DNA from: Planctomycetota bacterium
GTDB lineage: Bacteria; Planctomycetota; Phycisphaerae; UBA1845
Direction: 5' to 3'
Assembly: GCA_024280855.1 (NCBI GenBank)
Contig: JAJRPG010000112.1
Span: 1 to 64,000 of the forward strand
DNA length: 64,000 nt
The notes beneath the pieces are model-generated. The model was given only the letters and a program-made list of their open reading frames with translations, made no database searches and was not told where the DNA came from. Below, piece by piece: positions 23,959-46,277 of this stretch (its first letter is position 1; each line of letters opens with the position of its first letter). The position numbers were made by a program, and so were the translations under genes.

Positions 23959-23968
23959 GAGTAAATAC

Positions 23969-26900
23969 CTATTGCTGACTGCTACGAACCAACTTTTGAC
24001 CACGAGGAAGCTTGGGGCCAAACACTGCATGCTCGACCTCTAACGCAGGCCTAGGCCTTGATATAATCGGGCCGTAAGTCTTCGTTTTTGGCCCGTATTT
24101 TTTTAGTTGTTGCTGCTTTTTGGGTGCTGGCGTATCTATATGACCACCCATAGGGCTATCTTCAGATTCAGGCCCCATGGCAGAATCTTCCGGCAAAATT
24201 CGCAGGCTCTTCATAAACGGACTCTGCTTCAACCAGTCTGGCAGGCCTACATTGTCGCGCTCTTCGATCGACATACGATGCAAATCTTCGTCGGTTCGAA
24301 GAATGTCCACTGTCATAACAATAACCAATTCCGTCTTGGATTCGCTTGTACTTACCGATCGAAACAGCGGACCAATATATGGCAAGTCGCCTAGAAACGG
24401 CACTTTATTGACACCTTCTGAAACACGCTTTTGGATTAATCCGCCAATGATGACCGTCTCGCCATCTCGAACCGTGACGTTCGTTACCACTTCACGCGTT
24501 TGGAAAATTGGCGAAGCTACGCCCTCTGTAAGTTGAATGTTTTCGCCGATGTTTGAAATTTCCTGCGTCACAGCAATTGTCACATAGCCATCCGGGCTAA
24601 TCTGCGGCGTCGCGGTCAAAACTATACCCACATCTTCTCGACCAATTGTAGATTGCGTTTGGCCTGTATCATTAAGTCGCGAAGATTCAACGATCGGCAC
24701 CTCATCTGCAATCGTGATACTGCCTTCCTGACCATTGCGAACAAGGAGCGTGGGACGCGACAGCACCTCCAACCGACTCTCCTGCTGAATCGCATGGAAT
24801 AAGAAACTAAAATCCTCACCAGTCACAGTAAAATTAAAACCGCCAAGCCCCAAACCAGCAGCGCCAATATCAGTCCCTGTAACAAAGTCGAAATCAGACC
24901 CTTGAATAATACCGTTAGGCCCAACAATGGCATTTTCTGAAAAATTTAAATCCTGACCGGCAATTTCCATGCCCAATTCAAAATCATCCGTTTGCGTGAT
25001 TTCTGCAATCACGACCGAAATCATCACTTGAGGCTCCGGCCGATCCAACTGCTGAATCATTTCCATCGTCTGCGAGTAAGCGCCACGACTCGTTCCAATG
25101 ATCAGATGGCTACTACCACCTTCATCACCGCCAATCGCTTCGATGGATATCTGGCGTTCCATGCGCCGGCGCTGGGCCTCCTCGTCAGTGATATCACCAA
25201 ACACGTCTTCTTCTTGTTGGATAAAGTTCTTATAAGCATCCGCAATCTGCGACGCCTCACGATAATCTGTTTGTATAACTTCGACCACGCGAATTTCCGC
25301 CTCTTGGGAATCAAGATATTGCACCAGCGACTCGACCATGCGCAAATCAATTTCAGCACCAGCCGCGATGAATGTATTCGTTCGCGCATCAGCCGTGAAA
25401 CGAAGGTCTTGCCCCACGCTCGCCATTTCAAATTCACCCAACTCATCGCCAAACATGAGCTGCGCTTTAAGCTCATCGCCGCCACCGCCACCATCCGTTT
25501 GGAACAATTCTTCCATGCGATCGACCATCGTCTGTGCATCGGCATTGACCAACTGAAACAATCGAAGCTCGGATCGAATCGGGCGCACCTTGTCGAAATC
25601 AAGTATCATCGACTCTAACATATCCATGCTCGAAGCCGGGGCCATGACCATCAATGAGTTTGTACGCGGGTCAGACTGAATGCGAATATCCTGACGTAGC
25701 AACTTTCGCGTTATATGAGAGCCGTCAGGTTGCTTCTCATCAAAAGTTATAATAATCGCCTCTTCGCCATCCGAACCACCCTCCTCACCAACCAGCGTTT
25801 GCTGAAGCACTTCTGCAAAATCATCAGCCAGCGCTTGACGTAGTTGAATGACCTTTACCTTCATCTCTCGTGCGGGGTTCGTCGTGTCTAGCCTCTCAAT
25901 AATTGAAGAGATGTTTTCCATCTCAGACTTAGACGCCCATACAATTAGTGCATTGATACGATCATCAGTTTCAATGGCAATCGCATCCGCTCGGCCTTGC
26001 GAGCTATCTCCCTGAGATTGAAATAAGCTCGCAAGCTTATCTGCTACCGATGTAGCCTTCGCCAGCTTTAGAGGAAATATCTGAAATTGCTTGGCTAGTG
26101 TCGAAGGCTGATCCAGCTTGTCCAACAATTCCACTATGATCTCGTGATCATCCCGTGACGCGCTACCCACCAAACTATTAGAAGACTCGTCAGCCAACAG
26201 CACCACAGGCGTGCCCGAAATTTCCTGCCCCTCACCGCGCGAGTCAAACAAATCTTGCATACGTTGAGCCAGTTTGATGGCACTACCATGCTTTAATGCA
26301 TACACCCGAATGAGAGCGGAATTAGGGCCTCCTTTAACGTCGAGTCGTGGAATAATCTCAGCGGCGCGTTCCAGTGCATCTCGTGTACCAGCCATCAACA
26401 AGGCATTACTGCGTTGATCCGCAATGACCGTTGGCGACTTGAATGATGCCGATGCGCTCTCCATACCCTGAAACAATTCGTCCAACATGCCAGCCAACAC
26501 CGTCGTGTCTGCAAAGCTAAGTTTGAAAATACGTGTCCCCTCAATCAAAGGCTGGACCTCAAGCCGCTTAATTAATCGATTGATTTCATCAAAATCCTCG
26601 ACACTCGATGCGATAATAAGCGAATTGCTACGTTCGTCAGCTACAAGGATGGGCGTATCGTCCAACAATTCACCCACTTGTCGCAGTGCCGCCTTGCGTA
26701 GCCAAAGTTCATCGATTTTCTCTTTCATATCCAGCGCCGACAATCGACCACATTTAACGATGCGCACTTGGTCAAACAACTTAGCGGGTTTGGAATCCAA
26801 TTGACGGGAAATGACTTCGATCTCTTCAAAGTTTTCTTCCGATGCAGATACAATCAACGAATTACTTCGAATATCTACCGTCAAGAAAAGCGTTTCACGA

Positions 26901-28489
26901 GCAATGGCTACTTTACCAGCTTCAGTAGCTTGAGCTGATTCCAGCCTCTGAACAAACAATTTCTTGATAATATCGCCTACTCGACTCGCGTCAGCGTATT
27001 CTAGCTGGATAAAGCGGATAGGAAACTTCAATGCCGAAGCAGGCTGATCCAACTGCCCTATCACCACCTCAGCTAACTGTAACTGTTCAGGTCGCCCCGA
27101 CACAATCAAGGTATTCGTGCGTGCGTCAGATCCAATCCCCACGTTATAAGATAGTGCTTTACCTTTATCACCCTGCGGTACAGAGTTGTTCCCACTACCA
27201 TCAGGATCCTCAGGCAATGTCTTACCATCATCAAACATACTACGCAGCACCTCACGCACAGTATCAGCATCAGCAAAGCGCAGAGGGAATAGTCGAATAT
27301 CGACTTCCTCACTAATAGCCACACCATCCAACATGCGAATGAGTTCGCTCATGGGGCCGACATTTTCTTCTACCGTCGCAATGATCAAACTGTTTGTCCC
27401 GGCATGAGCAATAATGCGCATCGGCTTACCCAAATCGATGGGCGACATATCTAAGATTGTACCATCCGGCAGCGCCTTACTAATGCTCAACCGAAATATC
27501 ACCTCAGCCGCATCAGCTTGTCCCTGCTGCGAAGCCAACAAATCCGTAATAACCGATGACATTTCCTCCGGCTTGGAATGAAGCAGCGGAAACACCGTCA
27601 GCTTCACTTCACCCCAACCCTTGGCTGGTTCTACGTCAATCGTATCAATGAAAGTTTGTATCGTTTTTCGATCTGATTCGGGCGCGATAACGAGAATCGT
27701 GTTGTTCGCATTGTTGGGGATGATTTGAATCTCGCCCTTAGGCCCCTGCGCCCCGGTCTTTTCCTTTAGCTTGCCAATAATATCCCGCAACTCATCAGCT
27801 ACGTCACTGGCCTGGCGATGCTTAATCTCAAACACCAATTGCTCATATTTTCCAAGCGAGTCCACGACTTCATCAACCTGCAAGATCGTCTGCACGGCGA
27901 ATTCGATATGTCGGGCTAACGCTGAGACTAGAATGATGTTTGACGACAATGCCGTCACCGTAACTTCATGCTCAGGACGAATGTTAGGGTCATACAATAC
28001 TTTTCGTAACGCAGGCCCCACGGTCGATGCAATATCTTTGGCATCCTTCCTCGTAACCGTAATCACACGAAGTTCAGGAACTTCTGTCTCGCCTTCCAAC
28101 ACGCTAAGCAAGGCATCAACCAAATCCAAATCTGATTGGTTTCCCTTCAAAATCAACTGCTTTCCGACCACCTCGTAATTGAGATCAGCCCCAGAAAGCT
28201 TGATATTGGTAATATCAATTCGACCTGGCGCACTTGGCTCTACTGTGTCCGTTTGTTCCACGGCCTGCTCTTGGGGGGGCGGTGCGACTTCCTGTGGTGA
28301 TTGACCAAACGCCGCGGTACTAGACAGCACGCCAAAGATGAGCGCGCACATCGACACCAGCTCTCGCCCATTGCCCATGCGCAACCGACCAGCATGCGTA
28401 AAATGCTTCACCTCTGGCCCCAGATCAACATAACAATTATTGACCCGCTGTATTGATTTCTTGCAACCCGTATGCAACTTCTTCATCAT
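23969..28489 (-). CDS. gspD: Secretin (GspD/PilQ-like) with about 12 N-domain modules
   Basis: Outer-membrane pore of the secretion machine, about 1506 residues against 650-750 for usual GspD. The C-terminal secretin domain starts about 340 residues from the end (PQVMISVVIAEIT) and ends with the family signature VPFLGDLPYIGPLFRS. Ahead of it I count about 12 NolW/N1-type modules, each of the form hydrophobic strand, LxxADAxxVxxxLxxLF helix, variable loop, then DxRTNSLIV strand and IxxLIxxLD helix. Usual GspD has three. A signal-like helix (SMCALIFGVLSSTAAFGQ) ends near residue 65 after an unusually long charged N-terminus; the start was taken at ATG 28489 (AAAGG just upstream), but a start closer to the signal is possible. 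A roughly 100-residue KKYGPKTK-rich tail follows the pore domain. Confidence 0.9.
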   Translation of the reverse strand: MMKKLHTGCKKSIQRVNNCYVDLGPEVKHFTHAGRLRMGNGRELVSMCALIFGVLSSTAAFGQSPQEVAPPPQEQAVEQTDTVEPSAPGRIDITNIKLSGADLNYEVVGKQLILKGNQSDLDLVDALLSVLEGETEVPELRVITVTRKDAKDIASTVGPALRKVLYDPNIRPEHEVTVTALSSNIILVSALARHIEFAVQTILQVDEVVDSLGKYEQLVFEIKHRQASDVADELRDIIGKLKEKTGAQGPKGEIQIIPNNANNTILVIAPESDRKTIQTFIDTIDVEPAKGWGEVKLTVFPLLHSKPEEMSSVITDLLASQQGQADAAEVIFRLSISKALPDGTILDMSPIDLGKPMRIIAHAGTNSLIIATVEENVGPMSELIRMLDGVAISEEVDIRLFPLRFADADTVREVLRSMFDDGKTLPEDPDGSGNNSVPQGDKGKALSYNVGIGSDARTNTLIVSGRPEQLQLAEVVIGQLDQPASALKFPIRFIQLEYADASRVGDIIKKLFVQRLESAQATEAGKVAIARETLFLTVDIRSNSLIVSASEENFEEIEVISRQLDSKPAKLFDQVRIVKCGRLSALDMKEKIDELWLRKAALRQVGELLDDTPILVADERSNSLIIASSVEDFDEINRLIKRLEVQPLIEGTRIFKLSFADTTVLAGMLDELFQGMESASASFKSPTVIADQRSNALLMAGTRDALERAAEIIPRLDVKGGPNSALIRVYALKHGSAIKLAQRMQDLFDSRGEGQEISGTPVVLLADESSNSLVGSASRDDHEIIVELLDKLDQPSTLAKQFQIFPLKLAKATSVADKLASLFQSQGDSSQGRADAIAIETDDRINALIVWASKSEMENISSIIERLDTTNPAREMKVKVIQLRQALADDFAEVLQQTLVGEEGGSDGEEAIIITFDEKQPDGSHITRKLLRQDIRIQSDPRTNSLMVMAPASSMDMLESMILDFDKVRPIRSELRLFQLVNADAQTMVDRMEELFQTDGGGGGDELKAQLMFGDELGEFEMASVGQDLRFTADARTNTFIAAGAEIDLRMVESLVQYLDSQEAEIRVVEVIQTDYREASQIADAYKNFIQQEEDVFGDITDEEAQRRRMERQISIEAIGGDEGGSSHLIIGTSRGAYSQTMEMIQQLDRPEPQVMISVVIAEITQTDDFELGMEIAGQDLNFSENAIVGPNGIIQGSDFDFVTGTDIGAAGLGLGGFNFTVTGEDFSFLFHAIQQESRLEVLSRPTLLVRNGQEGSITIADEVPIVESSRLNDTGQTQSTIGREDVGIVLTATPQISPDGYVTIAVTQEISNIGENIQLTEGVASPIFQTREVVTNVTVRDGETVIIGGLIQKRVSEGVNKVPFLGDLPYIGPLFRSVSTSESKTELVIVMTVDILRTDEDLHRMSIEERDNVGLPDWLKQSPFMKSLRILPEDSAMGPESEDSPMGGHIDTPAPKKQQQLKKYGPKTKTYGPIISRPRPALEVEHAVFGPKLPRGQKLVRSSQQ

Positions 28490-28615
28490 CGTTGCCTTTA
28501 CAATTATCACCGGCCGTCCTCCATGACAGCCAGTCACCTTACAAACGTAATAACACCTCTACCCTACACACAAATCAAACAAACACGCACCAAACACTCA
28601 TTCCCATTTCCAACC

Positions 28616-31600
28616 TTACCGTCTACGACTAGGCCGATTTTGAGACCCTTGTGATGATGGTCTTGAATTTCGTGAACCGCTTTGCCGTCGACCAGAATTA
28701 CTACGACCACTACGGCCAGTTCTATTACCTGACCGATTGCCTGACCGATTACCAGAACGAGCACCTGACCGACCACCTGACCGATTACGATTCGAGGTGC
28801 CTCTAAGTTGATCAATCAGCGCGATCACTTCATTCGCCGGCGTTGATCCAAGTTGTATAATTTTAATCGTCTGGCCAGTTGGTCCAAGACGTTCATACGC
28901 CTGTACCATTTGTTCAATCTCTTTGAAATGCGACGGATCACCACCTAAAAGTAGCGAATTTGTCCGCCTGTCCGCCTGAATCGAAACAGAGGAAAGTGTA
29001 TTTCGGTTCTGCCCTTTGCCTTTCGGGGCAGACGCTCTAATTCCATCATTTACACTTGTTTCCAATAGTAGCGCCAGGTCTTCTACATTAATACCCGAGG
29101 CAACTTTCACAATCTTAAACGGCGTCACGGCCGCGGCCTCTTCCGTATCCAATTTTGATACAATCGCTTCAATCGCCGTAATGTCCGCTGGCGCAGCCCT
29201 GATGATAAGACTGTTCATCAAATCATTCGATACAATAACAGGCTGAACGCGGTCACGCTGTCCGCCGCCCTTTTGATCTACAAACATTTCCTGCAACTGT
29301 GGCAAAATATATTTTACTTGTGCATATTTCAGTTTTATGATCTGCGGAACAACGCCCTTTTCACTTTCTTCATCCAACTGGTGAATTAACTGCTCGATCT
29401 GGTCAACGCGACTCGCACCGCCGCTCACCACCAAGCCATTGCTCTGGGTCAACACACTTAGGCGCGTATCCCCCACCAACTCGTCCGAGCTTGAGTTACC
29501 AGACTTCTTGAGATACTCCTGCATCGCCTGCTGAACCTCAGTCGCATCCGCATATAACAACGTAAGCACGCGAACCACTTCGCCCGTGCCCGCCTCCTCT
29601 GTATCTAACTGCTTTACGACAGCTTCAATATCTGCAAAGTCCTCCGCACTGGATTTTACCAGCACAGCCTTGGACCCACTTAACGCGGAAACAGAAATTG
29701 GCGGCGCCTGACTGCCCTGACGACTAGGCTGAGATTTAATGAAAATATCGTCTATGGTCTTAACCACCGACTCCGCATCAGCATTGCTCAGATGCACCAC
29801 ATGCACAGACTGCTGACTACTACCTTCAGTATCTAAATCTGCAATGAGAAGTTCGATCCTAGCCAGGTCCGCCTGCGAAGCTGTCACAATAACAACCCGC
29901 GCAACAGGCTCAGCCACTGCAGTCACCGGCGTCTTCGAGTTTTTACCGCCACCTCGAAACAGTTGCGTTATGGCTTCTGAAACTATGTATGGATCAGCAA
30001 ATTCCAATCTGAAAGATTTCACCTGGTCGATGCGACTCAGGGCAGTCTCTTTATCATCTAGTTGACCGATAAGCGTCTGCACCCACTCATGATTATGAGC
30101 ATTAGCCGTCACCGCTATCGATTGCGTAGCAGGCTCTTCCACCGCGAGAACCAAATCCTGCAAGGAAATTTTCTTTTTACCGCCGCTCTGCTCTTTCATG
30201 CGGGAACGTTCTTTTATGATCGTTACAACAGCACTGGGATTAGCAAACGTCAGCCCATACACCTTAGTCGTAACCGCATACTTAGCCGCGACATCAGCCT
30301 GATCCATCTTGGCGATACGCGCCCTAATGTCAGTCAGATTCGTTTCACTCGCCTCAATCACAAGCGTGTTCGTACTGCTATCAGGCGTGACGACAACCGT
30401 ATATTCATGAGGTGAAACCAATTTGCCACCGCTGATTTCCTGCATCGCTTCCTGTCGCTTATCGTAAATCGTCGTAATAAGCTCAGACGCTTCATCCGCC
30501 CGAATATGCTCTAGCACAATGGTTTCAGTCGTTAGCTGAGGAGCGATGTTATCTTCTAATGGATCGATAAAATCTTTTTTGATTTGATCAACTTGCTTTT
30601 GCGTGCCTCGAACAATCAGCACGTTCAGCGAAGCATTCGCTTCTATAATAGGTGGGTCTTCACCAGCCACCCCCACAGCCCCGCTCCACAAACGGGTGAT
30701 GTTACTCGCCACCTCTTTCGCATCTGAATTTTTCAAAGCGATCATATAAAAACCAGGAGGCTGTTCTACGTTTTCTGGTGTATCGATTCGCTGCAAGGCA
30801 TGTTCAACGAAGCCAAAAATCAAAGGACCACCTAGTACAACAATCGCATTCGCCTGGTCATCCACCTCAGCCCCGAAAGCATCCATCTGATCGCCCGGAG
30901 CCAGCCCCTTAACATAATCACCCATCAACTTATTTAACGTATCGTAAATGCGGCGTGCGTTGGCGTGCTTCAACCGAAATACGCGAAACTCCGCTTGAAA
31001 CTCACGCGGCTTATCCAACAATTTTACCAGAGACTCAATTTCCAAAAACATCTCGTCGTCGGTCATCACCAACAACTGCTTCGAATTGTCATCACCCGTC
31101 ACCGTAAACGCCGGCACTGCGCTCCCCGAATCCCGGCCCGATGGGGCATAAGCCTTCGTAATCGCTTGCGCCACTTCGCTCGGTCGCGCGTGTTCGAGCG
31201 TAATCATGCGCAACGAAGCTCGCTCCTGAGCCTCGGCTTCTAATTGCTTGACGGTTTCAAGAATTCTTTCCTGCAAATACTCAGGTGCGCTATAAAAAAC
31301 CATGCGCCCACCATCTTGTCCAATGAATCGCGTCTTAGCGGTGCTGGAAGTTTTTGACTCTTTCTTGCTCCGCCTTTTGGTTCCCTGGGTTAGATTCACG
31401 CCTTGAAAAATAGAGGTGAGCGTCTCAGCTACCATCATCGCATCGGCGTGCGCCAGATGGATAACCTCAAAATCTGCCTGGGCAGGCTTGTCGAATCCCG
31501 CGATCAATTCAGCCACTTCTTCATGCTGCTTAGCCGTTCCCTGAACGGAAAGAATTTTCAGCGGTACATAACCAATAAACGTAGGAGAATTCAAACTATC

Positions 31601-34600
31601 CGTAGACCCAAACGACGCAGCGTCACCATCGTCTTTGCCACGTCGTCCACCGGAATTCTTCTCATCCCCACCGCCGTATCGACCTTGCAAATAAGTCAGC
31701 AAAGACGGAACAGATGCATGTACCAATTCGTATTGCACCCAGGTGCGATCAACGCTCTCATTACTTTCCAAATCCTTGATTAGCTCACCAATAAAGTCCA
31801 ACGCAGCCACAGGGCCAAGCGCCATGATCGAATTGTTTCGCGGGCTACTCGTCAGCTTAATATCCTTGGGGTCAATACCCAACATATCCCCAGCCATAGT
31901 CTTCTGCATAATTGGCTTAGGGAACTGACCACCGCTGCCGCCACTACTACGAGATGTTGTCGAAGCATTACCACGACGAGCGCCACCACTTTTAGGACGA
32001 GGCGACTCCGTTCGCGCACTCGTAGCTGACATGCCCAACCAATCTTTCAAAAGCATTTCAACTTCAGAGGCATTAAGCTTATCCAACGGATACACACGCA
32101 TCTCGCTATTGATCGGGCGAGGCTGATCCACCGTAGACAGGAGCTTCAAGATAGCTGGGTATTGATTCGTATCAGCCCGCAATATCAGTGAACGATCGCG
32201 GGGATTCGGCATCACCCGCACCGACGTCGGCGGCAACTGAGGTGCCGCTACGGGTTTATTATTCTGCTGCTGAGGCTGGCGTTTGTTTCCTTGTTGCTGC
32301 TTCTGCTGTTGTTGCTGCTGACGAGCCCGTTGCTGCTGCTGTTGCTGTGCCCGCGATACCTGCTGACGCTGCTGCCGCGTCGCATTGAACATCTCATTGA
32401 TAATGTCAGTCGCTCGATACACATCGATATATTTAACACGATAAATACGAATATCCGGCGGGCGAGGCAGGTCTTTCATTTCCTCTTCTAATTCATCCAG
32501 CCAATCCGGTATCTCCTCCAGAACCGATCGCGGAGCCACAACAATCATGCCACCGCTTGATTCGTCATACTTAATAATAACCTTCTCAGCCGAGGCAGCC
32601 TTCTTGGTTTTACTTGGCATGCGCTCCTTCGTTATCACCACATCATCATGACCTTCTCGTGGCTGCTCGTTAAGTAGCGCACGAGCTTTATCACGCACGA
32701 TATCTGATAAAGCATCTTGATCGCCCGATGTCGCAGAACGCTGTGGAGGTGAAGGCTTAGCGATTGGTTTCTTCTCGTCAGCCGCGGCTGGCACATCACC
32801 CTCAGACTGTTCATCCGATTGCCCTAAAGCTGTCAAGCTCAACCCTTGCAACGCAGCCGAAAAGGCCAATGGCATTACACATCGATTCACAGCACTCGTT
32901 CGTGGCCCAAGCTGCTGCACACCTGACGACTGATCCTCTTGTGGCGACATATCCTCAATTTCAATATCCAACTCCGGATGATTAATCTTCATCCATATCG
33001 CGACATCTTTAGGGCTAATCCCTGCAGGCACGGCAAAAGCCTTAGGGCGGCTGCGAGCGAGCTTGCTTTCTATGTCCACATACTCACGAATCAAATCTTT
33101 AATTTCATCAAAGCGATCACGATGCGGATACCGCACAATCAACATGTCACCAAAAGAAGCATAGTCCACATGGGGAAGCTCATCGCTAGGCTCCCAAAGT
33201 GCTGACAATACGCCATCCAATGCATACGAGGCATCATAAGCATCAACGTGCTCTAACATGTAAGTAAATTTTGGAACCGGCGCAGGATTGATTAACTCCT
33301 CCGATTCAGATGTGTCAAACTTAGAGATAATGCGATCAACTTCCGTCAGCTTAGCCGGACTTGCCGAGACAATCAGCGTGTGGTCAATCAAATCAGCCCG
33401 CAGATAAAGATCATCCGTCGTCCGCGTAATCGTCGTCACAAAAGCTTCATCTTCGGCCTCGTCATCGATCGCAGCTAACATCTGCCTTGCACCACCCGCT
33501 TTGGGACGAGCTTTCCCACCAGGTCGTCTCGCACCAGCACGCCTAGCCGGTACTGACACCGTATTTACAATAATGTCCACCAACATTTTCATGTCGATAT
33601 GCTTGATCTGAAAAATCTTCAAATTACGCGCGCCGCCCGCGATACTATCCAGATGCGAAATCCATTCCTTAGCCTTAGCCACAAGCTTCACAGGCCCTTG
33701 AAGAACCACAGCCGCTCCGCCTGGCGCTTCCACAATTTGGAACTCGCCTGACAACGTCGCAGACCTAACCGGTGCCTTGAGCTTTCCCCCACCAGGCCGC
33801 TTACGCGAACCGCCGCCCATGAGCGCCTGAATGGAACCAACCATCTCACTGGCGTCAGCGTTTTGCAAGGTAATCGTCTCAAACGCAGATGACTCGTCAC
33901 CGGCTTTATCGAACAACTCAATCAACCCGCGGGCTTCTTCAATAATCACCCTCGGCGCAGCTAACACAATCTGACCGTTACGATCATCAGCTTGCATATG
34001 ATACCGATCAGGCTGCGAAGAACTCTTCTTGCGAGGAATTGTAATCTTGCCGGCGCGTTTCCCTTTCTTCACTGACACCGAGCCTTCCTCACCAGAAAGC
34101 GAACCAGCCTTCACCAACTGCTGCACTTTCATGTCCAACAGCGGGGCAATTTGCTCAACGATTTCACTAGGCTCCACAAACTGCACAGCCATCGTGACAA
34201 CTTCAACCTCGTCACCGCTGTCTACTGGCAGATCAAACTGCGTAATCAACAAACGCGCTTCTTCAATCACCGACTCCGGAGCCGCGAGTACCAATCGGCG
34301 ATTTCGCTCATCAGCTACTAAATGAAAACGCTCAACATCCGACTTGGCCGAACGACCCGCAATACGCAGGCCCGGCTTCTTGCCCGCACTCGGCTTCAAC
34401 GCTTCGGCATCACTAGCTAATCCGCCTGCACTCACCAACTGCTGCACCTTCAGCGACAGCAATGGCTCAATTAGTTCAATCAACTCAACCGGATCAGCAT
34501 GTTCAATTTTAATAAAGACCGTCTGTATCTCATCCCCATCGGAGCGCGTATCAAACGACGCGATTAGCTTTCGCGCCTCAACCACAATAGGCTCAGCCGC

Positions 34601-37600
34601 AGCCACCACAATCCGATGGTTCCGGGCATCAGGTAACAACTGATAAAGATCGCCACTACCCGCAGGCTTAGATTTTTTATTCTTACCACCTATGCGAAGT
34701 CCGGGGGTACTCTTAGTTGCACCCACCTCTTTAATCACGCCTGTCAAAACCAAATGCTGCACCTTGATCGAAAGCAAAGGCTCAATTAATTCAACAATCT
34801 GCTCAGGGTCGGCGTGAGTCACATCAACATACTCAACCAACACTTCATCAATCTCTTCCGTAGGACGAAGGATATCCAGCAGCTTCTCAATCTCAGCAAA
34901 CTTCTCAGGCTCCGCAACAACAATCAACTTGCCCGACGAAGGCTGAGGTAAAAACTGTGCCTCCTCAGGAGAAGCCGTACCCTTCTTAATCGTCTTTGGT
35001 TTAGCAGCTGGCCCACCATCCTTGGATGACATCAGCGATTGCAACGATTCTGAAAGCGCAACCACATCCGTTCCCGGCGGGAAATCGTCATACACGCGAA
35101 TCTCGCGTTGATCGCGCGCCACATCAAATTCTAAAATCAGCGATGCGACCTCTTCCATCTGCTCAGGAGACGTGCGCACAATGAGACGATTATCAAGCTG
35201 AATAATTTTCAACTTGCCGTCCTCACTACCGCCCTTTGCCAGCGTCCCAGGCCTGGGCTTACCCCGCGTAGTTTTTTTCACGCTATTGGTCAGCAGAGAA
35301 TCAATCGTCGCCATCATGTCCGCCGCTTCACGATGCTTAATCACGAAAACGCGCTGCACAATTCCATCAGGCTGGTCGAACTGCGCCAGCAATCGCTTAA
35401 TAAGCGAAACCTCGCTATCCTTCGCCCCGATGACCACCATGCCACCGTCCGTCGTTTCATAACGAATGCCGCTCTTCTTCGCAGCCAAACCTTTCTTCGC
35501 ACCGCCGCCGCCAGCAATCAAAGCCGACACTTTTTCAATGGCTAATTCTGGTGAAATATGCTCAACAGCAATCACCACAAACTCAGCCGATTGCGAAAGC
35601 TGTTCAAGCTCTTCAATCACCGACTTATATTCTGTCCATTCCTCATCATTGCACAAAACATACAAACGCCCACCAGCATCGTCAGACGTAAACTTACCCT
35701 TCGTATTACCTTTACCCCCAGCCCGCTTCGGCCGAACAGGACGCTTAGGCCCGGTACTTGTTCCCGCCCGAGATGATTCATATTCCTGCAGAATGCTAGC
35801 CACAAATGATGGAAGCTGATTTTTCAATTGCACAATATGAAGCTCAACCACTTCACCAGCCACATCAAGCTCAACCAGCAGCAACTTCACTAACTCCAAA
35901 TCGTCTGGCGAACCCGTAAAGTAAATTGCATCACCATCTGGAGAAGCTACCACTTCCGATTGCATCTCGCTTGGCCTGACGGATTTCTTATTAGTTTTCT
36001 TGGTTGACCCACCAATCAGTTTGGAAATAGTCCCGACAATATCTTCAGCCTCGGCATGTTTTAACACTAATCGAATAGGGCCAACTTCTGTTTCTATATC
36101 AAAAGATTCAATAAGCTGACGCACACGGGCAACGTCCTTATCCGAGGCCATCACAATAATCGCCCGCGACACAGGATGCGTAATCAACCGTATTTTATCA
36201 ATCGTAGCCGACTTCCCGCCAGGCTTTTTACCGCGCGACGTAGGCCTTTTCGGCTTGGTTACAGCACCAGCCGGCGTCAAAATATCTTGCAATGTGACCA
36301 CCAAAGCGTCAGGGTCAGCATACTTCACCTCAATCACGATAGGACGAAAATCTGTATTCGTATCCACATCAACGTAAGGTAACAACAGCTTGATCTCTTC
36401 AATCTTATTGCGCATACCCCGCACGATAAGCACGCCCTGCCCATCAGCTGGCACCACGCTAAGTGCCGGCGCTTGGACACCATCCAACGTGCCCTTATTA
36501 CCACCTCGTGGTGTGCGCGCCCTCGGACGCGCCGTAGGCCCATCCAAATCCATCAACTCTTGCAGCTTCTCATATGCTACCGAAGGGGGAATATGAACCA
36601 CTTTGATAACCTCCAGCGTGCGAGGGTCTTGCCCCTGTGGAGAAACCAAAATAGGAACCAAATCCAGATACTTGCGAATGTCACTCGCCAGCGCAAATAT
36701 CGCCACCGTATTAGAGTTCTCCAGCGGCGTCACCCGAACATAATCCGGCATGAAATCACGAACAATCGTCAAGTCCGACAGCGAACCAGACTTTGGCGTA
36801 TACAACACCAACACCAGTTCCTCATCCGCAAGTTTCGCAGCCTGAAAATCCGACACGCTACGATACATCATCTCCGGTTCCAGCTCACGCAAATAATCAT
36901 TTACGCGAATCACCTCAAGGTGTGTGTCTCGCCTCAACATCCAATAAGGCTCTAATGGCTTATAATTAAACAGCAGCATACGAATGCGCTTGAGCAAATC
37001 TGCAAACGAAAGCTCTTCTTCAGTCACAAAGCTCACCCGACCATCCGGAGGCTTCACTCCCACAACACCAAGACCAGTCTCCCGCGCAACCATCTCAATC
37101 AAATCTTCATAAGTTCCGTCCACGATGCTAAACTGATACTTACCCTCTTCCGGCGAAACAGATGAAAACGTGGGCGGGATATTAATCGATGTGTCTTTAG
37201 CCGATGAACCACCTCGACCAGCAGGCTTAGCCACTTTGACCTTGCCATCACGAGATGAGGGCTTGCGCGTCGCACCAGCCGCGCGAGATTCTTTGTGCTT
37301 ACGCTGACGTTCTTTCATCTCCTCGCGTCGCTGCATCGCCCGCTCTTTCGCCGTCATTTTCGACTTATCTTTTTTCTCGGCAGGCTTAGCCACAGGCTCA
37401 ATCGTCACTGCCCCCTTCGGAATTACAGCCTTAGTCTTTCGGCTGCGCTGCGGACTTCCACGACGCGGCGTAGTCTTACGAGACTTATTTGGCATTTCCT
37501 GAGGAGTGGGCGATTTAACTGGCGCCCCTTTCTTCGCAGGTGTCTGCCCAACCGAAGCCATGGGAAAAAGAAACGGCACAAACAGCACCACCATATACCA

Positions 37601-37672
37601 AACAAGCCGGCGCGCTTGCACCAAGCCAGTAGTCTTCAATCGTTTATCTTGTATCTGCGGATGATTCATCAT
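28616..37672 (-). CDS. Giant exported protein of about 28 tandem secretin N-domain modules, no pore domain
   Basis: A 3018-residue protein with a signal peptide (WYMVVLFVPFLFPMASVGQ, residues about 25-44), a Lys/Arg-rich linker (45-175), an N0/STN-like domain (about 180-265, EDLIEMVARETGLGVVGV), then about 28 NolW/N1-type modules of 70-110 residues. Each has the pattern strand-LxHADA-helix, a basic or Gly-rich loop, then a LIV strand and a helix ending in LD. Around residues 1593-1616 a second hydrophobic, signal-like stretch (VMPLAFSAALQGLSLTALGQ) suggests a fusion of two ancestral genes. A Gln-rich loop lies near 1766-1804 and a basic SGNR-repeat tail after 2957. No secretin pore domain is present. 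It sits 21 bases after the PilO-like gene and before the secretin, so it is likely a periplasmic scaffold or extension of that machine. GAGGAAG precedes the start. Confidence 0.88.
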   Translation of the reverse strand: MMNHPQIQDKRLKTTGLVQARRLVWYMVVLFVPFLFPMASVGQTPAKKGAPVKSPTPQEMPNKSRKTTPRRGSPQRSRKTKAVIPKGAVTIEPVAKPAEKKDKSKMTAKERAMQRREEMKERQRKHKESRAAGATRKPSSRDGKVKVAKPAGRGGSSAKDTSINIPPTFSSVSPEEGKYQFSIVDGTYEDLIEMVARETGLGVVGVKPPDGRVSFVTEEELSFADLLKRIRMLLFNYKPLEPYWMLRRDTHLEVIRVNDYLRELEPEMMYRSVSDFQAAKLADEELVLVLYTPKSGSLSDLTIVRDFMPDYVRVTPLENSNTVAIFALASDIRKYLDLVPILVSPQGQDPRTLEVIKVVHIPPSVAYEKLQELMDLDGPTARPRARTPRGGNKGTLDGVQAPALSVVPADGQGVLIVRGMRNKIEEIKLLLPYVDVDTNTDFRPIVIEVKYADPDALVVTLQDILTPAGAVTKPKRPTSRGKKPGGKSATIDKIRLITHPVSRAIIVMASDKDVARVRQLIESFDIETEVGPIRLVLKHAEAEDIVGTISKLIGGSTKKTNKKSVRPSEMQSEVVASPDGDAIYFTGSPDDLELVKLLLVELDVAGEVVELHIVQLKNQLPSFVASILQEYESSRAGTSTGPKRPVRPKRAGGKGNTKGKFTSDDAGGRLYVLCNDEEWTEYKSVIEELEQLSQSAEFVVIAVEHISPELAIEKVSALIAGGGGAKKGLAAKKSGIRYETTDGGMVVIGAKDSEVSLIKRLLAQFDQPDGIVQRVFVIKHREAADMMATIDSLLTNSVKKTTRGKPRPGTLAKGGSEDGKLKIIQLDNRLIVRTSPEQMEEVASLILEFDVARDQREIRVYDDFPPGTDVVALSESLQSLMSSKDGGPAAKPKTIKKGTASPEEAQFLPQPSSGKLIVVAEPEKFAEIEKLLDILRPTEEIDEVLVEYVDVTHADPEQIVELIEPLLSIKVQHLVLTGVIKEVGATKSTPGLRIGGKNKKSKPAGSGDLYQLLPDARNHRIVVAAAEPIVVEARKLIASFDTRSDGDEIQTVFIKIEHADPVELIELIEPLLSLKVQQLVSAGGLASDAEALKPSAGKKPGLRIAGRSAKSDVERFHLVADERNRRLVLAAPESVIEEARLLITQFDLPVDSGDEVEVVTMAVQFVEPSEIVEQIAPLLDMKVQQLVKAGSLSGEEGSVSVKKGKRAGKITIPRKKSSSQPDRYHMQADDRNGQIVLAAPRVIIEEARGLIELFDKAGDESSAFETITLQNADASEMVGSIQALMGGGSRKRPGGGKLKAPVRSATLSGEFQIVEAPGGAAVVLQGPVKLVAKAKEWISHLDSIAGGARNLKIFQIKHIDMKMLVDIIVNTVSVPARRAGARRPGGKARPKAGGARQMLAAIDDEAEDEAFVTTITRTTDDLYLRADLIDHTLIVSASPAKLTEVDRIISKFDTSESEELINPAPVPKFTYMLEHVDAYDASYALDGVLSALWEPSDELPHVDYASFGDMLIVRYPHRDRFDEIKDLIREYVDIESKLARSRPKAFAVPAGISPKDVAIWMKINHPELDIEIEDMSPQEDQSSGVQQLGPRTSAVNRCVMPLAFSAALQGLSLTALGQSDEQSEGDVPAAADEKKPIAKPSPPQRSATSGDQDALSDIVRDKARALLNEQPREGHDDVVITKERMPSKTKKAASAEKVIIKYDESSGGMIVVAPRSVLEEIPDWLDELEEEMKDLPRPPDIRIYRVKYIDVYRATDIINEMFNATRQQRQQVSRAQQQQQQRARQQQQQQKQQQGNKRQPQQQNNKPVAAPQLPPTSVRVMPNPRDRSLILRADTNQYPAILKLLSTVDQPRPINSEMRVYPLDKLNASEVEMLLKDWLGMSATSARTESPRPKSGGARRGNASTTSRSSGGSGGQFPKPIMQKTMAGDMLGIDPKDIKLTSSPRNNSIMALGPVAALDFIGELIKDLESNESVDRTWVQYELVHASVPSLLTYLQGRYGGGDEKNSGGRRGKDDGDAASFGSTDSLNSPTFIGYVPLKILSVQGTAKQHEEVAELIAGFDKPAQADFEVIHLAHADAMMVAETLTSIFQGVNLTQGTKRRSKKESKTSSTAKTRFIGQDGGRMVFYSAPEYLQERILETVKQLEAEAQERASLRMITLEHARPSEVAQAITKAYAPSGRDSGSAVPAFTVTGDDNSKQLLVMTDDEMFLEIESLVKLLDKPREFQAEFRVFRLKHANARRIYDTLNKLMGDYVKGLAPGDQMDAFGAEVDDQANAIVVLGGPLIFGFVEHALQRIDTPENVEQPPGFYMIALKNSDAKEVASNITRLWSGAVGVAGEDPPIIEANASLNVLIVRGTQKQVDQIKKDFIDPLEDNIAPQLTTETIVLEHIRADEASELITTIYDKRQEAMQEISGGKLVSPHEYTVVVTPDSSTNTLVIEASETNLTDIRARIAKMDQADVAAKYAVTTKVYGLTFANPSAVVTIIKERSRMKEQSGGKKKISLQDLVLAVEEPATQSIAVTANAHNHEWVQTLIGQLDDKETALSRIDQVKSFRLEFADPYIVSEAITQLFRGGGKNSKTPVTAVAEPVARVVIVTASQADLARIELLIADLDTEGSSQQSVHVVHLSNADAESVVKTIDDIFIKSQPSRQGSQAPPISVSALSGSKAVLVKSSAEDFADIEAVVKQLDTEEAGTGEVVRVLTLLYADATEVQQAMQEYLKKSGNSSSDELVGDTRLSVLTQSNGLVVSGGASRVDQIEQLIHQLDEESEKGVVPQIIKLKYAQVKYILPQLQEMFVDQKGGGQRDRVQPVIVSNDLMNSLIIRAAPADITAIEAIVSKLDTEEAAAVTPFKIVKVASGINVEDLALLLETSVNDGIRASAPKGKGQNRNTLSSVSIQADRRTNSLLLGGDPSHFKEIEQMVQAYERLGPTGQTIKIIQLGSTPANEVIALIDQLRGTSNRNRSGGRSGARSGNRSGNRSGNRTGRSGRSNSGRRQSGSRNSRPSSQGSQNRPSRRR
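28676..28800. repeat. Degenerate short tandem repeats coding the SGNR tail
   Basis: Within the 3' end of the giant gene, 12-15-base units related to CTGACCGATTGC and CTGACCGATTAC repeat several times, encoding Ser-Gly-Asn-Arg-rich peptides on the minus strand. Replication slippage probably expands and shrinks this tail. Confidence 0.7.
32270..32375. repeat. CTG/TTG-rich microsatellite-like run coding poly-Gln
   Basis: The plus strand shows runs of TGCTGTTGTTGCTGCTG type; on the coding minus strand they encode a loop dominated by Gln (about 30 of 45 residues) inside one N-domain module of the giant protein. The loop is tolerated because this position is variable in all modules. Confidence 0.75.
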
Positions 37673-37693: not shown

Positions 37694-39475
37694 TTACCGC
37701 CTGCCTCGCTTATTCCTAAATTTCTTCGATCGACGACCCCGATTCGGGCTTTGCTTTACATAAGGCGGTCTTTTCTTCACTGTTGTCGCTTGCGGCTTTT
37801 CAACTTCTCTAGCCTCAGCCTCTTCGCGAGTCTTATTAGGCACAGCCGCTGGCCTGACAGCCTTAACCGGCGTAGGCTTAACCTCACCGACTTTATCAGG
37901 CACAACCTTCGGCGATTTACCCGGAATCTGCCCCGACGCTTCACCCCGACGCACACCCTGTTGTACCGGCGCGGGCTGGATTGGTTTCGCAGACTCAACA
38001 GGCTTCACGTCCGGAGTAGACGGGACCACCGCCTTACCATCCTTAGCTACATCACCAGCCGCAGGCGTCTTATTACCCTTAGCATCTTCAAGCGAATCCT
38101 CATCAGGAGTTCCTGGCTTAGCCTCAACCGGCACCTCAACAGGAACGACCTCCGCTGCTTTTTCCTCAGTTAGAATCTGCTCGGCCAAATTTTGAAAACG
38201 TGGATAATCTGAAGCATCCGCGATTTGTACGCTATCACTTATCGTCGACCCGACCGGATATACATAAAACTCATCTTCCCAACGAACCAATGCCGCACGT
38301 GGGTGAACAAAAATCAATGTGCCCCCGTCAAGCTCATCACCCGTCGCGTAATAAGAGCGCTCTCGCCGCTTGGAATTGTAAATCTGTATTTCACCAGAAC
38401 GTTCCTGCACCCGACTACGCACCAACGCCACCTGAATCTTCATCTGCTTACCGTCAGGCCAACGCTTGCGCCGATTCACCACTGGTGCTGGAGGCGTTGG
38501 TGGCGGAGGCTTGACGGGTGTCGGATTCTTAACCACACGCTCAGGAGGTTTCTCTTTGACATCTACCGTCACCTGCGCCGTCGAAACATGACCACTATTG
38601 TCCGATACCTCGAGCGCATATTGAAACGAGCCCACTTTCGACGTATTGATCGTAGGTCGATTTGTATCCCCAGCCGACAAGCCAGGATCACCCGACCACT
38701 CAAATCGATACTTTCCATCCCCACCCCTGGCACTACCACTAAGGGTCAATTTCTTACCCACGAAAACAGACTGATTTTTACCCGCTATCGCAATCAACGG
38801 ATCATAAGGAACAAATTCCGTAAACGGCGTCCGTGTCCAAATTGATGAATAATCGCGCCCGCTATGACGAACCACCTTTTCAGGCTGATCCAACTTGGCG
38901 TCCACAACCTTCTCACCAAGCATCTTATGCTGTGGCAACACCCACACCTCAATCGGAACCCGAAGGTTCACATACTCACGATCAACCTTCTTTTTGCCTC
39001 GACGTGACGAACTCTTTGGAAATATGGAAACATTGCCCACCCGCACCAACTGCGGCAACTCACTCAAGTCTTTAAGAAAAGACGTCACCGAAGTCAGCGA
39101 ACCCTCCGCATTGATCGTAAGCGACATCTTAGTGACACCCGTTTTACGATCTGGATGAGGCTTAGTCGGCGTCGTAGTTGCCTGGTCAAGCTTGTGCGTA
39201 GCAAAAAGATCATTCAACCGCTGACGGATGGCATTCTCTACCTTGCCCACATCCCCCGACCCGATACGATCCATCAAACGACGATACTCACGCACCGCCC
39301 ACTCAGCTTTTTCCTGCTTCTCTTCAAGCTTATCAAGCTCTATCTCGCGCTTTGCAATACGATCCCCCAGCGTTACCAATGGCTCGACATACCACGGATA
39401 AAACGTCTTGGATACCATGATAAACAATACCATCGTACCAAACACACCAGCCAGGATTTTCGTTTTCTTATCCAT
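37694..39475 (-). CDS. PilO/GspM-like protein fused to PKD and PilP-like domains
   Basis: About 593 residues. An N-terminal inner-membrane helix (ILAGVFGTMVLFIMVSKTF, about 8-25) is followed by a coiled coil (45-85) and a PilO-type ferredoxin-like domain (about 95-190, NAEGSLTSVTSFLKDLSELPQL). Residues about 225-310 form a PKD domain (LTLSGSARGGDGKYRFEWSGD, then YALEVSDNSG). Residues about 340-415 resemble PilP or the GspC homology region (GEIQIYNSKR, ATGDELDGGTLIFVHPRAALVRW, EFYVYPVGS), the part that in known systems contacts the secretin N0 domain. A long Pro/Lys-rich tail ends in a cluster of Arg and Lys. Start taken at ATG 39475; the frame continues to TTG at 39499. It would join inner-membrane platform and secretin in a single chain. 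Confidence 0.7.
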   Translation of the reverse strand: MDKKTKILAGVFGTMVLFIMVSKTFYPWYVEPLVTLGDRIAKREIELDKLEEKQEKAEWAVREYRRLMDRIGSGDVGKVENAIRQRLNDLFATHKLDQATTTPTKPHPDRKTGVTKMSLTINAEGSLTSVTSFLKDLSELPQLVRVGNVSIFPKSSSRRGKKKVDREYVNLRVPIEVWVLPQHKMLGEKVVDAKLDQPEKVVRHSGRDYSSIWTRTPFTEFVPYDPLIAIAGKNQSVFVGKKLTLSGSARGGDGKYRFEWSGDPGLSAGDTNRPTINTSKVGSFQYALEVSDNSGHVSTAQVTVDVKEKPPERVVKNPTPVKPPPPTPPAPVVNRRKRWPDGKQMKIQVALVRSRVQERSGEIQIYNSKRRERSYYATGDELDGGTLIFVHPRAALVRWEDEFYVYPVGSTISDSVQIADASDYPRFQNLAEQILTEEKAAEVVPVEVPVEAKPGTPDEDSLEDAKGNKTPAAGDVAKDGKAVVPSTPDVKPVESAKPIQPAPVQQGVRRGEASGQIPGKSPKVVPDKVGEVKPTPVKAVRPAAVPNKTREEAEAREVEKPQATTVKKRPPYVKQSPNRGRRSKKFRNKRGRR

Positions 39476-39538
39476 CAATACCCAAAAACTTTTACTCAAT
39501 CATTTCACTGCGTGGCATAATGTGTGATGGGTGGCATG

Positions 39539-39617: not shown

Positions 39618-41243
39618 TCAACTAACACCCTTACGATGCTTCTTGCCACTCTTCTTGGTCGACACAATCTCTATGCGTATATCCTGAGCAAAAGGATAGC
39701 TCTCCTTCAAATTAGGAGACTGAGAACCCATACTCGCCCGCAATCGCCAATCACCTTGTTCAGGAACAAACGCATGAAGACTTTTTATCAACTCAGTGGG
39801 CGTCGAACGTTTTTTACAACGGGTCCTAAATACAATCTGTGCATGCTCGCCAGTCTTAGCCCCAACCTTAATCTGCTTCAAATCTATGCGATCAAAAATC
39901 ATTTCCTCGTTCGTAGGAAAAACCGACACCACATCAACCAGCACATCCACCCACACGCGCTGGCTCTCATCAAAATCATCCAACACGCCATGTAGTTTTA
40001 GAAATTTCTTGTTGGCGCTGCGTTGACCCTTCAATTCAGTGATTTGCTCATTCAAACTAGCTAGCCGAGCGCGATCAGACGCCGTGAATTTCACGACCCC
40101 CATCACGCTAGCCACGATAAACAGCACCGCGACAGCCGCGATCATCGGCGCTTTCTTCAAACGCTTTCGCGCAGCTGATTCCGTTTTCTTAGGATGCAAA
40201 AAGTCAAAATGAAACTGGTCGTCACTCGCATCCGAAAGGATCAAACCCATCACAGCCGCAAACGCCGCCGCGTTCGCCCCCTCATCAGGCTCCCAACCAA
40301 ACGTCCGCGCAGGGTTATACATTTCAGTCGTGACGTGCAACCGAGCTTGAATCGCATCAGACAGCAGCGACTCCATTCCCGTATCACCCGCAATCACCAC
40401 ATGATCAATCTCAGCTCCGGCGTCCGACGCACGATAAGCCTCAATCGACCGCGTCACTTCCATCAGTAGAGCCACCATCGCTGTAGCACACGCAGGTTGA
40501 GTTTCAGCATCCGTAAATTTTAGTGTCGCATCAGCCACGTTATTCGCCGGCAACGAAGCAGGACCATCAACCGGACATGCCCCCGTCAAATCCTCGCCCT
40601 CAGACATCGCCACCGACGCCGCCCGCGAGAACACCAACGACCCCTCACGCAACACAGATATTTCCATAAACGTCGGGCGGACATCAATAAACAACACCAA
40701 ATGAGGCATCGCATGTTGCAGCAGTTCACAAACAGCCACCTTATTCGCATACGGACGAAGACCGACCCGCTCCAGTTTCAAATCCGCAGCCGCAAATATC
40801 GCCTCATACTGCGACAACACCTCACGACGAATCGCAGCCACTAACACATCTGAAGAAGTGCCGCCATCAACCGGCAACCCCACCGTATAGTCCACAGCCG
40901 CGTCCATAACCGGAAACGGCAATTCCTTGGCAATCTGAATTTTGACCATGCCCGGCAATTCTTCTGGAACCGTCGTGGGAAGTGTTAGCGTATTAAGTAC
41001 CACTTGATCGCGCGGAATGTCCACAGCCGCATGTTTAGTCGTAATCCCCTCTTGATCCAACGCCTGACGAATATGTGCCCCAAACTGTTGCGGATCATTA
41101 GGGTCCACGCTGGTGGGAATAGCCACGTTGATTAGCCGGTCAATCTTAACGCCTCGATTAGAAACCAACGCATGCGCAATCCGCAGCGTCCGCGTATCCC
41201 AATCAATCGCCAAAATCTTCCTTTTTCCCCGTCTAGCGGCCAC
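39618..41243 (-). CDS. PilM-PilN fusion protein (GspL-like)
   Basis: 541 residues. Residues 10-345 form an actin-like PilM/GspL cytoplasmic domain (KILAIDWDTRTLRIAHAL, VDIPRDQVVLNTLTLP, GMVKIQIAKELPFPVMDA, then VVIAGDTGMESLLSDAI). A single inner-membrane helix lies near 361-384 (APMIAAVAVLFIVASVMGVV), followed by a coiled coil and a PilN-type periplasmic domain (IVFRTRCKKRSTPTELIKSL). This is the topology of GspL and of a natural PilM+PilN fusion. I set the start at GTG 41243, preceded by AAGGAG with 7-base spacing and overlapping the gspK stop by 11 bases; an ATG-type start at 41267 is possible but has a worse context. Confidence 0.82.
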   Translation of the reverse strand: MAARRGKRKILAIDWDTRTLRIAHALVSNRGVKIDRLINVAIPTSVDPNDPQQFGAHIRQALDQEGITTKHAAVDIPRDQVVLNTLTLPTTVPEELPGMVKIQIAKELPFPVMDAAVDYTVGLPVDGGTSSDVLVAAIRREVLSQYEAIFAAADLKLERVGLRPYANKVAVCELLQHAMPHLVLFIDVRPTFMEISVLREGSLVFSRAASVAMSEGEDLTGACPVDGPASLPANNVADATLKFTDAETQPACATAMVALLMEVTRSIEAYRASDAGAEIDHVVIAGDTGMESLLSDAIQARLHVTTEMYNPARTFGWEPDEGANAAAFAAVMGLILSDASDDQFHFDFLHPKKTESAARKRLKKAPMIAAVAVLFIVASVMGVVKFTASDRARLASLNEQITELKGQRSANKKFLKLHGVLDDFDESQRVWVDVLVDVVSVFPTNEEMIFDRIDLKQIKVGAKTGEHAQIVFRTRCKKRSTPTELIKSLHAFVPEQGDWRLRASMGSQSPNLKESYPFAQDIRIEIVSTKKSGKKHRKGVS

Positions 41244-43005
41244 GAACCTTCTCCTTATCATCCTCACGGATCGGGTACTGAGCGCCCAATTTCGTCAAGT
41301 CCCGATAATAAATCGTCTGAGCAATAGGCCCGACCATATCAACCACCACCTGCAACCGCGTCACCATGCCAACATGATCCGCATAACCCAGGGAATCAAT
41401 CGTAAACTGCTGCCCGCGCGCCGTGATTCGAGGCGCGATATTCACATAAGTCTCTAAATCAAGCACTTCTTCCGTCACCAGCCAAGCCGTCGTAGACAAA
41501 TCCTCAGCCCCGAGTGAGCCCCGTGTCTCGACGATGCCTTTAACCTGTTCGTCCGTCAGTCCATTTATACACCTCAGCACCAGCGCCGATGCAGTGTTCA
41601 CATTGATCAAACCAGGCACGCCCGACCCGCTATTTTGCACCATCGTCGTCCGGTCCATCAGGATAGCCAGGTGTTCCACGCCCATCGGACTCAGCAGCGC
41701 ACCGGTATCCGTTTCCCGCTGTAATAGCAGCGCCGCTGGTGTTTCGATCGGTCCTAACCCGCCTTGAGCATCATCCGTTTCTTGGCCCTCTTCACCCTCA
41801 GAATCGCCGGTTTCGTCCCCAACAAGGGTGTCATCAGACGGTTGAGCGTTCGGATCATCCCCCGGCTCAACCTCCTCCTCCTCACCTGTCTCCCCCTCTT
41901 CCCTGACCTGCTGTTGGGGTCCAAGCTTACCGCGAGGATTTCCACCATCGTTTTCAGCACTGTCCGGGTCGGTGGGCGAGCCATCATTCGAACCGTCAGC
42001 ACTACCCGCCTCACCAGTATTATTACTGCCGCCGTTACCAGCGTTATTCGCGTTACCAGCACCACGAGAGCCGCCTTGCCCGCGCGTCGCACTCACGATG
42101 TAATTCACCACCGTAGGCTCATCCGGGAACTCAATTTCCAGCGCCGCAGACACCACAGATTCTTCATCAAAAAGATAAATTCTTGGCCGATTATCATTAC
42201 TGGTCTGAGTCTCAGCCGACCAAACGGTAAGATAGGCATACAACCCCTTATTAAGTCGGCCGTCTTCATTGTCAGGCGGAAACGTCAGATCACCGTCATC
42301 TTCGTGCAAACCCAACAGCCCATTCCGGTCGAAATCTTCACCATACAGCAGTTGACCCGTAACACCCTTCACCAACAGTAATTCCTCAACCGTATCAAAC
42401 GGGCCATTCTTGATTTGGTAGGGACGGTCAAGATCTCGATAGTAAAGAGCCTCCGATTCCCCTGTTTGGCTCCGCGAATTGTTGTCGCTATCCCGCCAAT
42501 CCAGAATCGCGCCGACAATTTCCTCCGCATCGAACTCCGAATCATCCCCAGCCGCTGCGGATACCAAAATCATCAACTGAGCCGCCGTAGCCGTGTTCAA
42601 ATTCAGCTTTGATGATTCATCAGTCAGCCCAATACGAATGAACTCCTCATCGTCCGTCAAATCATCAGCTACGATGCTGAAACGATAGGCTATTGCCCCC
42701 TCATCCAACTCCTCATTGGTTCCCCACGTCCGAGAATCGACCCCGTCCGCCCACACAATAATGCGATGCAATTCCTTCGGATTGTCATACCACAAATCCA
42801 TATCCGATCGAATCACAGGCAAAATCCCCTTCACGAAGTCGATGCCCGCTTCAGCAGCTAATCTCGTTTGAATGCGCATAGAAACCGCCTGCGTGGAAGC
42901 CAAATCCGCATTTACGCGAAATGCCAACATCCCAGCCAATAACCCAAGTAGCAAGAGAACAGCAAGCACCACAGGCAAAATTACAGCTTTTCTTCTATTT
43001 GTCAC
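41233..43005 (-). CDS. gspK: Type II secretion minor pseudopilin GspK
   Basis: 590 residues, much longer than usual GspK (about 320). The N-terminus MTNRRKAVILPVVLAVLLLLGLLAG is a prepilin-like helix that, as in GspK, lacks Glu at position 5. Two GspK saddle segments are recognisable: SSKLNLNTATAAQL with LDWRDSDN near residue 130-170, and GLINVNTASALVLRCINGLTDEQVKGIVETRG near 480. Between them, residues about 310-430 are a low-complexity Gly/Asn/Asp/Glu insertion. GspK caps the pseudopilus tip with GspI and GspJ. Start is GTG at 43005, overlapping the gspJ stop (GTGA). Confidence 0.85.
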   Translation of the reverse strand: MTNRRKAVILPVVLAVLLLLGLLAGMLAFRVNADLASTQAVSMRIQTRLAAEAGIDFVKGILPVIRSDMDLWYDNPKELHRIIVWADGVDSRTWGTNEELDEGAIAYRFSIVADDLTDDEEFIRIGLTDESSKLNLNTATAAQLMILVSAAAGDDSEFDAEEIVGAILDWRDSDNNSRSQTGESEALYYRDLDRPYQIKNGPFDTVEELLLVKGVTGQLLYGEDFDRNGLLGLHEDDGDLTFPPDNEDGRLNKGLYAYLTVWSAETQTSNDNRPRIYLFDEESVVSAALEIEFPDEPTVVNYIVSATRGQGGSRGAGNANNAGNGGSNNTGEAGSADGSNDGSPTDPDSAENDGGNPRGKLGPQQQVREEGETGEEEEVEPGDDPNAQPSDDTLVGDETGDSEGEEGQETDDAQGGLGPIETPAALLLQRETDTGALLSPMGVEHLAILMDRTTMVQNSGSGVPGLINVNTASALVLRCINGLTDEQVKGIVETRGSLGAEDLSTTAWLVTEEVLDLETYVNIAPRITARGQQFTIDSLGYADHVGMVTRLQVVVDMVGPIAQTIYYRDLTKLGAQYPIREDDKEKVRGR

Positions 43006-45815: not shown

Positions 45816-46277
45816 CTATTTTTCCAGCCAGTTCTTGACGTCGTCGCTGCTTGCTTTGCCGTCATTGTTTGAGCGGTCAGGCCCCCAACTCCATAAATCG
45901 AAGCCATCTTCGTTCATGTCACCTGGCGAACGAAACTCGTACGGGTTGCCCCAAGGATCAAGCAATTCTTCGTACGCACCTTCCATGTATGGGCCATTGT
46001 AGTTATCACTATCAGCTTGCCCCTTAGGCACAAACAAAGCTTGCAGCCCTTCATCTGAATCGGGATAACGACCGATGTCCCATTTGTAGGATTTTAACCC
46101 CTTAGCTATGGGGCCATTGCGCCCAATGCCAGCCCTGGCAAGATCAATGTTTACCTTCTGAGCGGTTCCCATGAGGGACGGAATGGCAAAGGCCGCAAGC
46201 ACTGCTAAGATGCCAGCTACCAAGAGCAATTCAATAAGCGTAAATCCATGTCGTCTTCTTCGTGTCCTGCGTTGCAT
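45816..46277 (-). CDS. gspG: Type II secretion major pseudopilin GspG
   Basis: 153 residues, the usual GspG size. The leader MQRRTRRRRHG is followed by FTLIELLLVAGILAVLAAFAIPSL, with Glu5. The C-terminal GspG signature is present: KSYKWDIGRYPDSDEGLQAL, LLDPWGNPYEFRSPG and DLWSWGPDRSNND, the last forming the calcium-binding loop of GspG. GGAGAT precedes the ATG. It should form the pseudopilus shaft. A 70-base gap separates it from gspF. Confidence 0.93.
   Translation of the reverse strand: MQRRTRRRRHGFTLIELLLVAGILAVLAAFAIPSLMGTAQKVNIDLARAGIGRNGPIAKGLKSYKWDIGRYPDSDEGLQALFVPKGQADSDNYNGPYMEGAYEELLDPWGNPYEFRSPGDMNEDGFDLWSWGPDRSNNDGKASSDDVKNWLEK

Follow-up and report, generated by a model that had tools for sequence, protein, structure and literature searches.

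The 3,018-aa protein encoded in the window (the whole 64,000-nucleotide stretch of DNA that was analysed, from a planctomycete of the class Phycisphaerae) is very probably the N-terminal chain of a giant type II secretin (GspD) that is made by two neighbouring genes. This assignment is preferred because the same protein is fused to the pore-bearing chain in sister lineages, because the lone N0 domain of the gene pair lies in it, and because the gene boundary bisects a module. Judged from profile matches, the complete secretin would carry about 35 N modules where the usual number is three or four. The features of the locus are collected in Table 1.

Table 1. Features of the secretin locus and its operon, with positions numbered along the window.
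Feature	Position	Strand	Basis
Poreless chain, probable N-terminal part of a split giant secretin	28616..37672	-	ORF, PF03958, orthologues
Signal peptide, Sec-type, aa 1-43, cleavage at about ASVG/Q	37544..37672	-	N-terminal hydrophobic segment, sequence reading
N0 domain, aa 178-270, only N0 of the gene pair	36863..37141	-	family HMM; all-loci profile against solved N0
First N-module block, 12 modules, aa 354-1454	33311..36613	-	own-module profile
Long linker inside the interrupted module, aa 1590-1684	about 32621..32905	-	conserved CVLP-type motif, weakly signal-peptide-like segment
Second N-module block, half module + 14 modules, aa 1685-2924	28901..32620	-	module profiles; AlphaFold piece
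C-terminal half module (beta1-alpha1), aa 2935-2958, at the gene boundary	28799..28870	-	hhalign
Basic Gly/Ser/Arg/Asn-rich C-terminal tail, aa 2959-3018	28619..28798	-	sequence
GspD partner, 1,522 aa, C-terminal chain with the pore and a signal peptide of its own, lacking N0	23969..28537	-	Pfam, HMMs
Half module (beta2-beta3-alpha2) at the N-terminus of GspD, second part of the module split by the gene boundary	28094..28201	-	hhalign
N modules of GspD (10-12)	25037..28069	-	Pfam, own-module profile
Secretin pore (PF00263)	24296..24793	-	Pfam
Lipoprotein, no Pfam family, directly 3' of GspD, candidate pilotin	23365..24030	-	homologues at giant loci
GspM-like, with PKD domain	37694..39499	-	Pfam, synteny
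GspL/PilM-like	39618..41267	-	Pfam, synteny
GspK	41233..43005	-	Pfam, synteny
GspJ-like	43002..43952	-	
GspI-like (weak)	43949..44932	-	
GspH-like pseudopilin	44945..45730	-	
GspG major pseudopilin	45816..46277	-	
GspF	46348..47550	-	

The open reading frame begins with an ATG, and its coding composition is uniform throughout. Secretin_N (PF03958) is the sole Pfam family in the product (E=3.4e-169), with 19 stretches significant individually; the Pfam search returned neither the secretin pore (PF00263) nor an AMIN domain of the PilQ type. By using a profile derived from the protein's own modules, 27 modules were recovered at i-E <= 2e-4 together with two weak ones, and 24 were kept at i-E < 0.01 after retraining. 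The profile-supported count is 24-27, in addition to the N0 domain and the half-modules, and some modules are degenerate. The initial annotation had described about 28 secretin N-domains behind a signal peptide and an N0-like domain, with no pore; the N-type composition, both N-terminal features and the lack of a pore have been borne out, and the count has been lowered. The TIGR02517 (NCBIfam) cut-off is also passed (472.7 vs 351.35 bits), but this score is a sum over repeated N modules and is therefore no proof of a complete secretin.

Residues of about 1455-1680, between the two module blocks, include a long linker, and the modules there are weak or interrupted. Reading this mid-protein interruption as a split module was supported in part, the second half matching the module profile at 96% and the first half at 28%. 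Within the linker, aa 1590-1684 are disordered and carry a conserved motif, C-[VIA]-[LM]-P; after it comes a hydrophobic stretch that in many cases terminates in G-Q, and both are kept across the window's family (f1) and the fused proteins of family f8. At one locus (L073, genome G036), one gene ends and the next begins, with a true signal peptide, near the place of this linker.

Structure prediction of a multi-module piece, proposed with the initial annotation, returned a secretin-like fold. The AlphaFold model of aa 2619-2848 (pLDDT 80, pTM 0.74) consists of three beta-alpha-beta-beta-alpha units, and every PDB match of this model at E <= 0.001 was a secretin structure (best 7e-9); at the level of the predicted model, the N-module fold is confirmed for this piece. 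The alignments of overlapping module triples lost register, as did that of the interrupted mid module. N modules form rings in solved secretins, as in the GspD, PilQ and InvG structures. The arrangement of modules in the monomer model is unlike that in solved secretin chains (TM 0.2-0.4), which would agree with a rival to the ring-stack step only, one compatible with a split secretin: the modules of a single secretin would form a flexible beads-on-a-string tether, or a sieve round its base, with the variable basic or Gly-rich loops catching substrates. Long low-complexity loops, degenerate modules and a module number varying widely (from 19 to 61) likewise favour such a tether. However, the rings of solved secretins and the steady total module number within the order count against it, and it is considered rather unlikely.

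The N0 domain was found once per locus by the family HMM, at the front of the poreless chain where the secretin is split, of the giant where it is fused, and of the normal GspD; the same HMM found it in none of the split pore-bearing GspD proteins. The N0 profile built over all loci matched the solved N0 structures of GspD, LspD and PilQ (best 3.7e-9), and 16 of the 46 N0 members were matched by the Pfam family type_II_gspD_N0. The identification rests on this continuous family because the profile restricted to f1 is weak (E=0.2). AlphaFold modelling of the N0 region from a two-sequence alignment reached a pLDDT of 42, too low for the model to be used.

The partner GspD carries 10-13 N modules and the pore. 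By aligning the facing ends of the two chains with a 78-column module profile (hhalign), it was found that 18 poreless C-termini match columns 1-31, comprising the first strand and helix (probability 91%), and that 21 GspD N-termini match columns 53-77, comprising the third strand and second helix (probability 95%). Each chain therefore carries half a domain, and in these profile alignments the gene boundary is shown to fall within the loop of one N module. The poreless protein had originally been explained as a free-standing stack of N rings, or else a long fibre in the periplasm, scaffolding or lining the channel but standing outside the secretin proper. Such a stack would suit a pore-free product of a separate gene, exported by a signal peptide of its own; however, both genes end or start mid-module, the partner GspD has no N0 of its own, and sister lineages have this sequence and the pore in a single polypeptide. 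The free-standing stack is accordingly regarded as highly improbable.

Orthologues of the 3,018-aa protein are present in two genomes of the same genus (82% and 78% identity). Throughout f1, the orthologous open frames are mostly 2,500-3,300 aa long and always lie after GspM, with the pore-bearing gene next wherever the sequence extends. The frame can therefore be accepted as real. An assembly or annotation artefact joining several genes might be suspected in MAG data, and the orthologues of G002 and G003 do carry an internal stop, but intact ORFs of similar length recur in many independent genomes and the fused form stands in the single-contig genomes G042, G046 and G087. The artefact is refuted by these independent genomes, and its chance is practically nil.

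In families f4 and f8 of the same order, the secretin slot is filled by one ORF of about 4,100-4,900 aa with a C-terminal pore, and a fused giant secretin is found at the same operon position in f10, f14, f16, f17, f18 and f22 of the class Phycisphaerae. Across the class, the fused giants span 2,381-6,169 aa and 19-61 N modules, always with the C-terminal pore, and 9 genomes within the order, plus about 15 others of the class, show this Rosetta-stone fusion. Chains of local alignments map the poreless protein and GspD in order onto the fused proteins. The best matches of single modules to a fused protein are loosely ordered (Spearman 0.44), and collinearity is read from the multi-module chains because single modules are too short. 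Total module numbers are 31-41 in complete f1 split pairs vs 32-39 in the fused f4/f8 proteins. As compared at the sequence level, the f1 pairs and the fused f4/f8 proteins are the same structure, made in two chains or in one.

Other members of the class have a normal GspD (2-4 N modules) at the same operon position. In the pore tree, giants and normal GspD are separated with a support of 100/100, and the split rows cluster together among the fused giants (72/58), by which a single origin of the split is weakly supported. Furthermore, the fused f8 proteins L046, L049, L055, L056, L074 and L075 contain, at the junction of the poreless and GspD parts (aa about 2625 in L074), an internal segment that resembles a signal peptide (..AVAQ, ..AMAQ). 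The junction loop comprises a basic stretch rich in Gly and Arg, similar in kind to the tail of the poreless chain, together with a hydrophobic segment whose end, AxAQ, resembles a signal-peptidase motif. These junctions may represent the fossil ends of two once-separate genes, or a retained processing site. Because they look like fused genes, either direction of change, fission or later fusion, may have taken place.

Neighbouring two-module units in L043 are 83-93% identical and the modules of L077 are up to 81% identical to each other; the best module pairs of the window protein reach 42-46%. These values mark recent tandem module duplication in L043 and L077, with a length that is still changing. 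L077 (444-18950, minus strand) encodes the largest secretin here, a protein of 6,169 aa in which 61 N modules can be recognised in addition to the pore. Such recent tandem duplicates would also be left by neutral expansion, in which duplication made the protein larger but gave it no new function, and a neutral gene fission produced the split. Nevertheless, the large size is kept in collinear register across many families, and the normal GspDs of the same class, with their 2-4 modules, form a separate clade, so that purely neutral growth appears improbable.

Giant module numbers were found only in Phycisphaerae among 119 genomes sampled across the phylum. Genomes of this class with giants have 33-55 PF03958 matches each and those without have 9-14, while the 112 sampled genomes of other classes have at most 21, with several secretins each. 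The giant secretin, fused or split, is present in at least 24 of 61 Phycisphaerae genomes and is not a phylum-wide trait.

If the protein is the first chain of a two-gene secretin, both chains would be exported separately, each by its own signal peptide, and would join in the periplasm, where the two halves of the split module would complement each other. With some 12-15 copies assembled, about 35-38 N rings could be stacked without interruption on the outer-membrane pore, and N0, as the lowest ring, would face GspF/L/M, the inner-membrane platform. If each ring is assumed to add 2.5-4 nm, the vestibule would measure roughly 90-150 nm, a roughly tenfold lengthening, and may serve as a guide for substrates and the pseudopilus through a wide envelope; its length would evolve by tandem duplication of modules. 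A tube of 90-150 nm exceeds normal periplasms, which counts against this explanation. A wide planctomycete periplasm is a possible reason for the giant secretin. An enlarged periplasm is known in Planctomycetes of another class (PMC5394234), and a literature search found no measurement of periplasm width in Phycisphaerae. A link to crateriform structures was rejected for now, as these are absent in described Phycisphaeraceae isolates (PMC8882080). In its boldest form, the model has the chains co-assembling by split-module complementation into a tube of roughly 100 nm and 35 or more rings that spans the whole envelope, with module number serving as an envelope ruler and with a single precursor cut, in some relatives, at the internal signal-peptide-like segment to yield these two chains. 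This form is put forward tentatively, as a plausible proposal held somewhat in doubt.

The secretins known so far comprise one N0 followed by one to five more N domains. The locus shares with the T2SS GspD (PulD, XcpQ, EpsD; N0-N1-N2-N3-pore) its operon context, the N0, N1-type modules and a C-terminal PF00263 pore, which here belongs to the second chain, but GspD has 3 N modules as against about 35 here, split over two genes within one module. The pore is found only in the gene pair or the fused homologues, the 3,018-aa protein alone being without one; by their sequence features, the pair and the fused homologue each qualify as a GspD. The closest parallel for such lengthening is PilQ of Thermus thermophilus, which has N0-N5 and forms a channel of ~35 nm in a periplasm of ~70 nm (PMC4463427). 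Its extra N rings lengthen the vestibule in a wide periplasm, as those predicted for the window's secretin would. Thermus PilQ, however, has 6 N domains in one chain and belongs to a type IV pilus, whereas the present secretin has about six-fold more and is accompanied by T2SS-type pseudopilins. Rather than a pil operon with PilQ, the operon has a GspG-type major pseudopilin over the cut-off and GspK. A comparable division is known from TadB/TadC, which arose by gene fission of a two-domain inner-membrane platform (PMC6668835). There too, a type IV filament component is split into two co-acting genes, but in that case whole domains were separated, whereas the break described here cuts through a single domain of a secretin of the outer membrane. 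The literature searchable through PMC yielded no account of secretins that are giant or split. Secretins with 19-61 modules and a chain break inside a ring domain would revise how long secretin vestibules can be, and would alter ideas of how the inner-membrane platform is reached and how pseudopili push through. In addition, natural length variants would let N-ring number be compared with periplasm width, and a natural split secretin would provide material for studying assembly.

The gene for the 3,018-aa protein belongs to a gsp operon, in which it is preceded by F-G-H-I-J-K-L-M. The initial annotation had asked whether its architecture also stands beside such operons in other genomes, and this is the case in the relatives: the order F-G-H-I-J-K-L-M-secretin is identical at split, fused and normal GspD loci, as far as the stretches reach. 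The lipoprotein that adjoins GspD has a lipobox Cys that is invariant in 18 of 18 aligned sequences. Its homologues occur at most giant-secretin loci, split or fused (weakly in f10), and none was found at four normal-GspD loci. It is a candidate pilotin and is proposed to act as such for the neighbouring secretin. The operon in the window comprises GspF-M with no ATPase of its own, and the genome to which it belongs (G000) has ten T2SSE-type ATPase matches over the cut-off, all of them located outside this operon.
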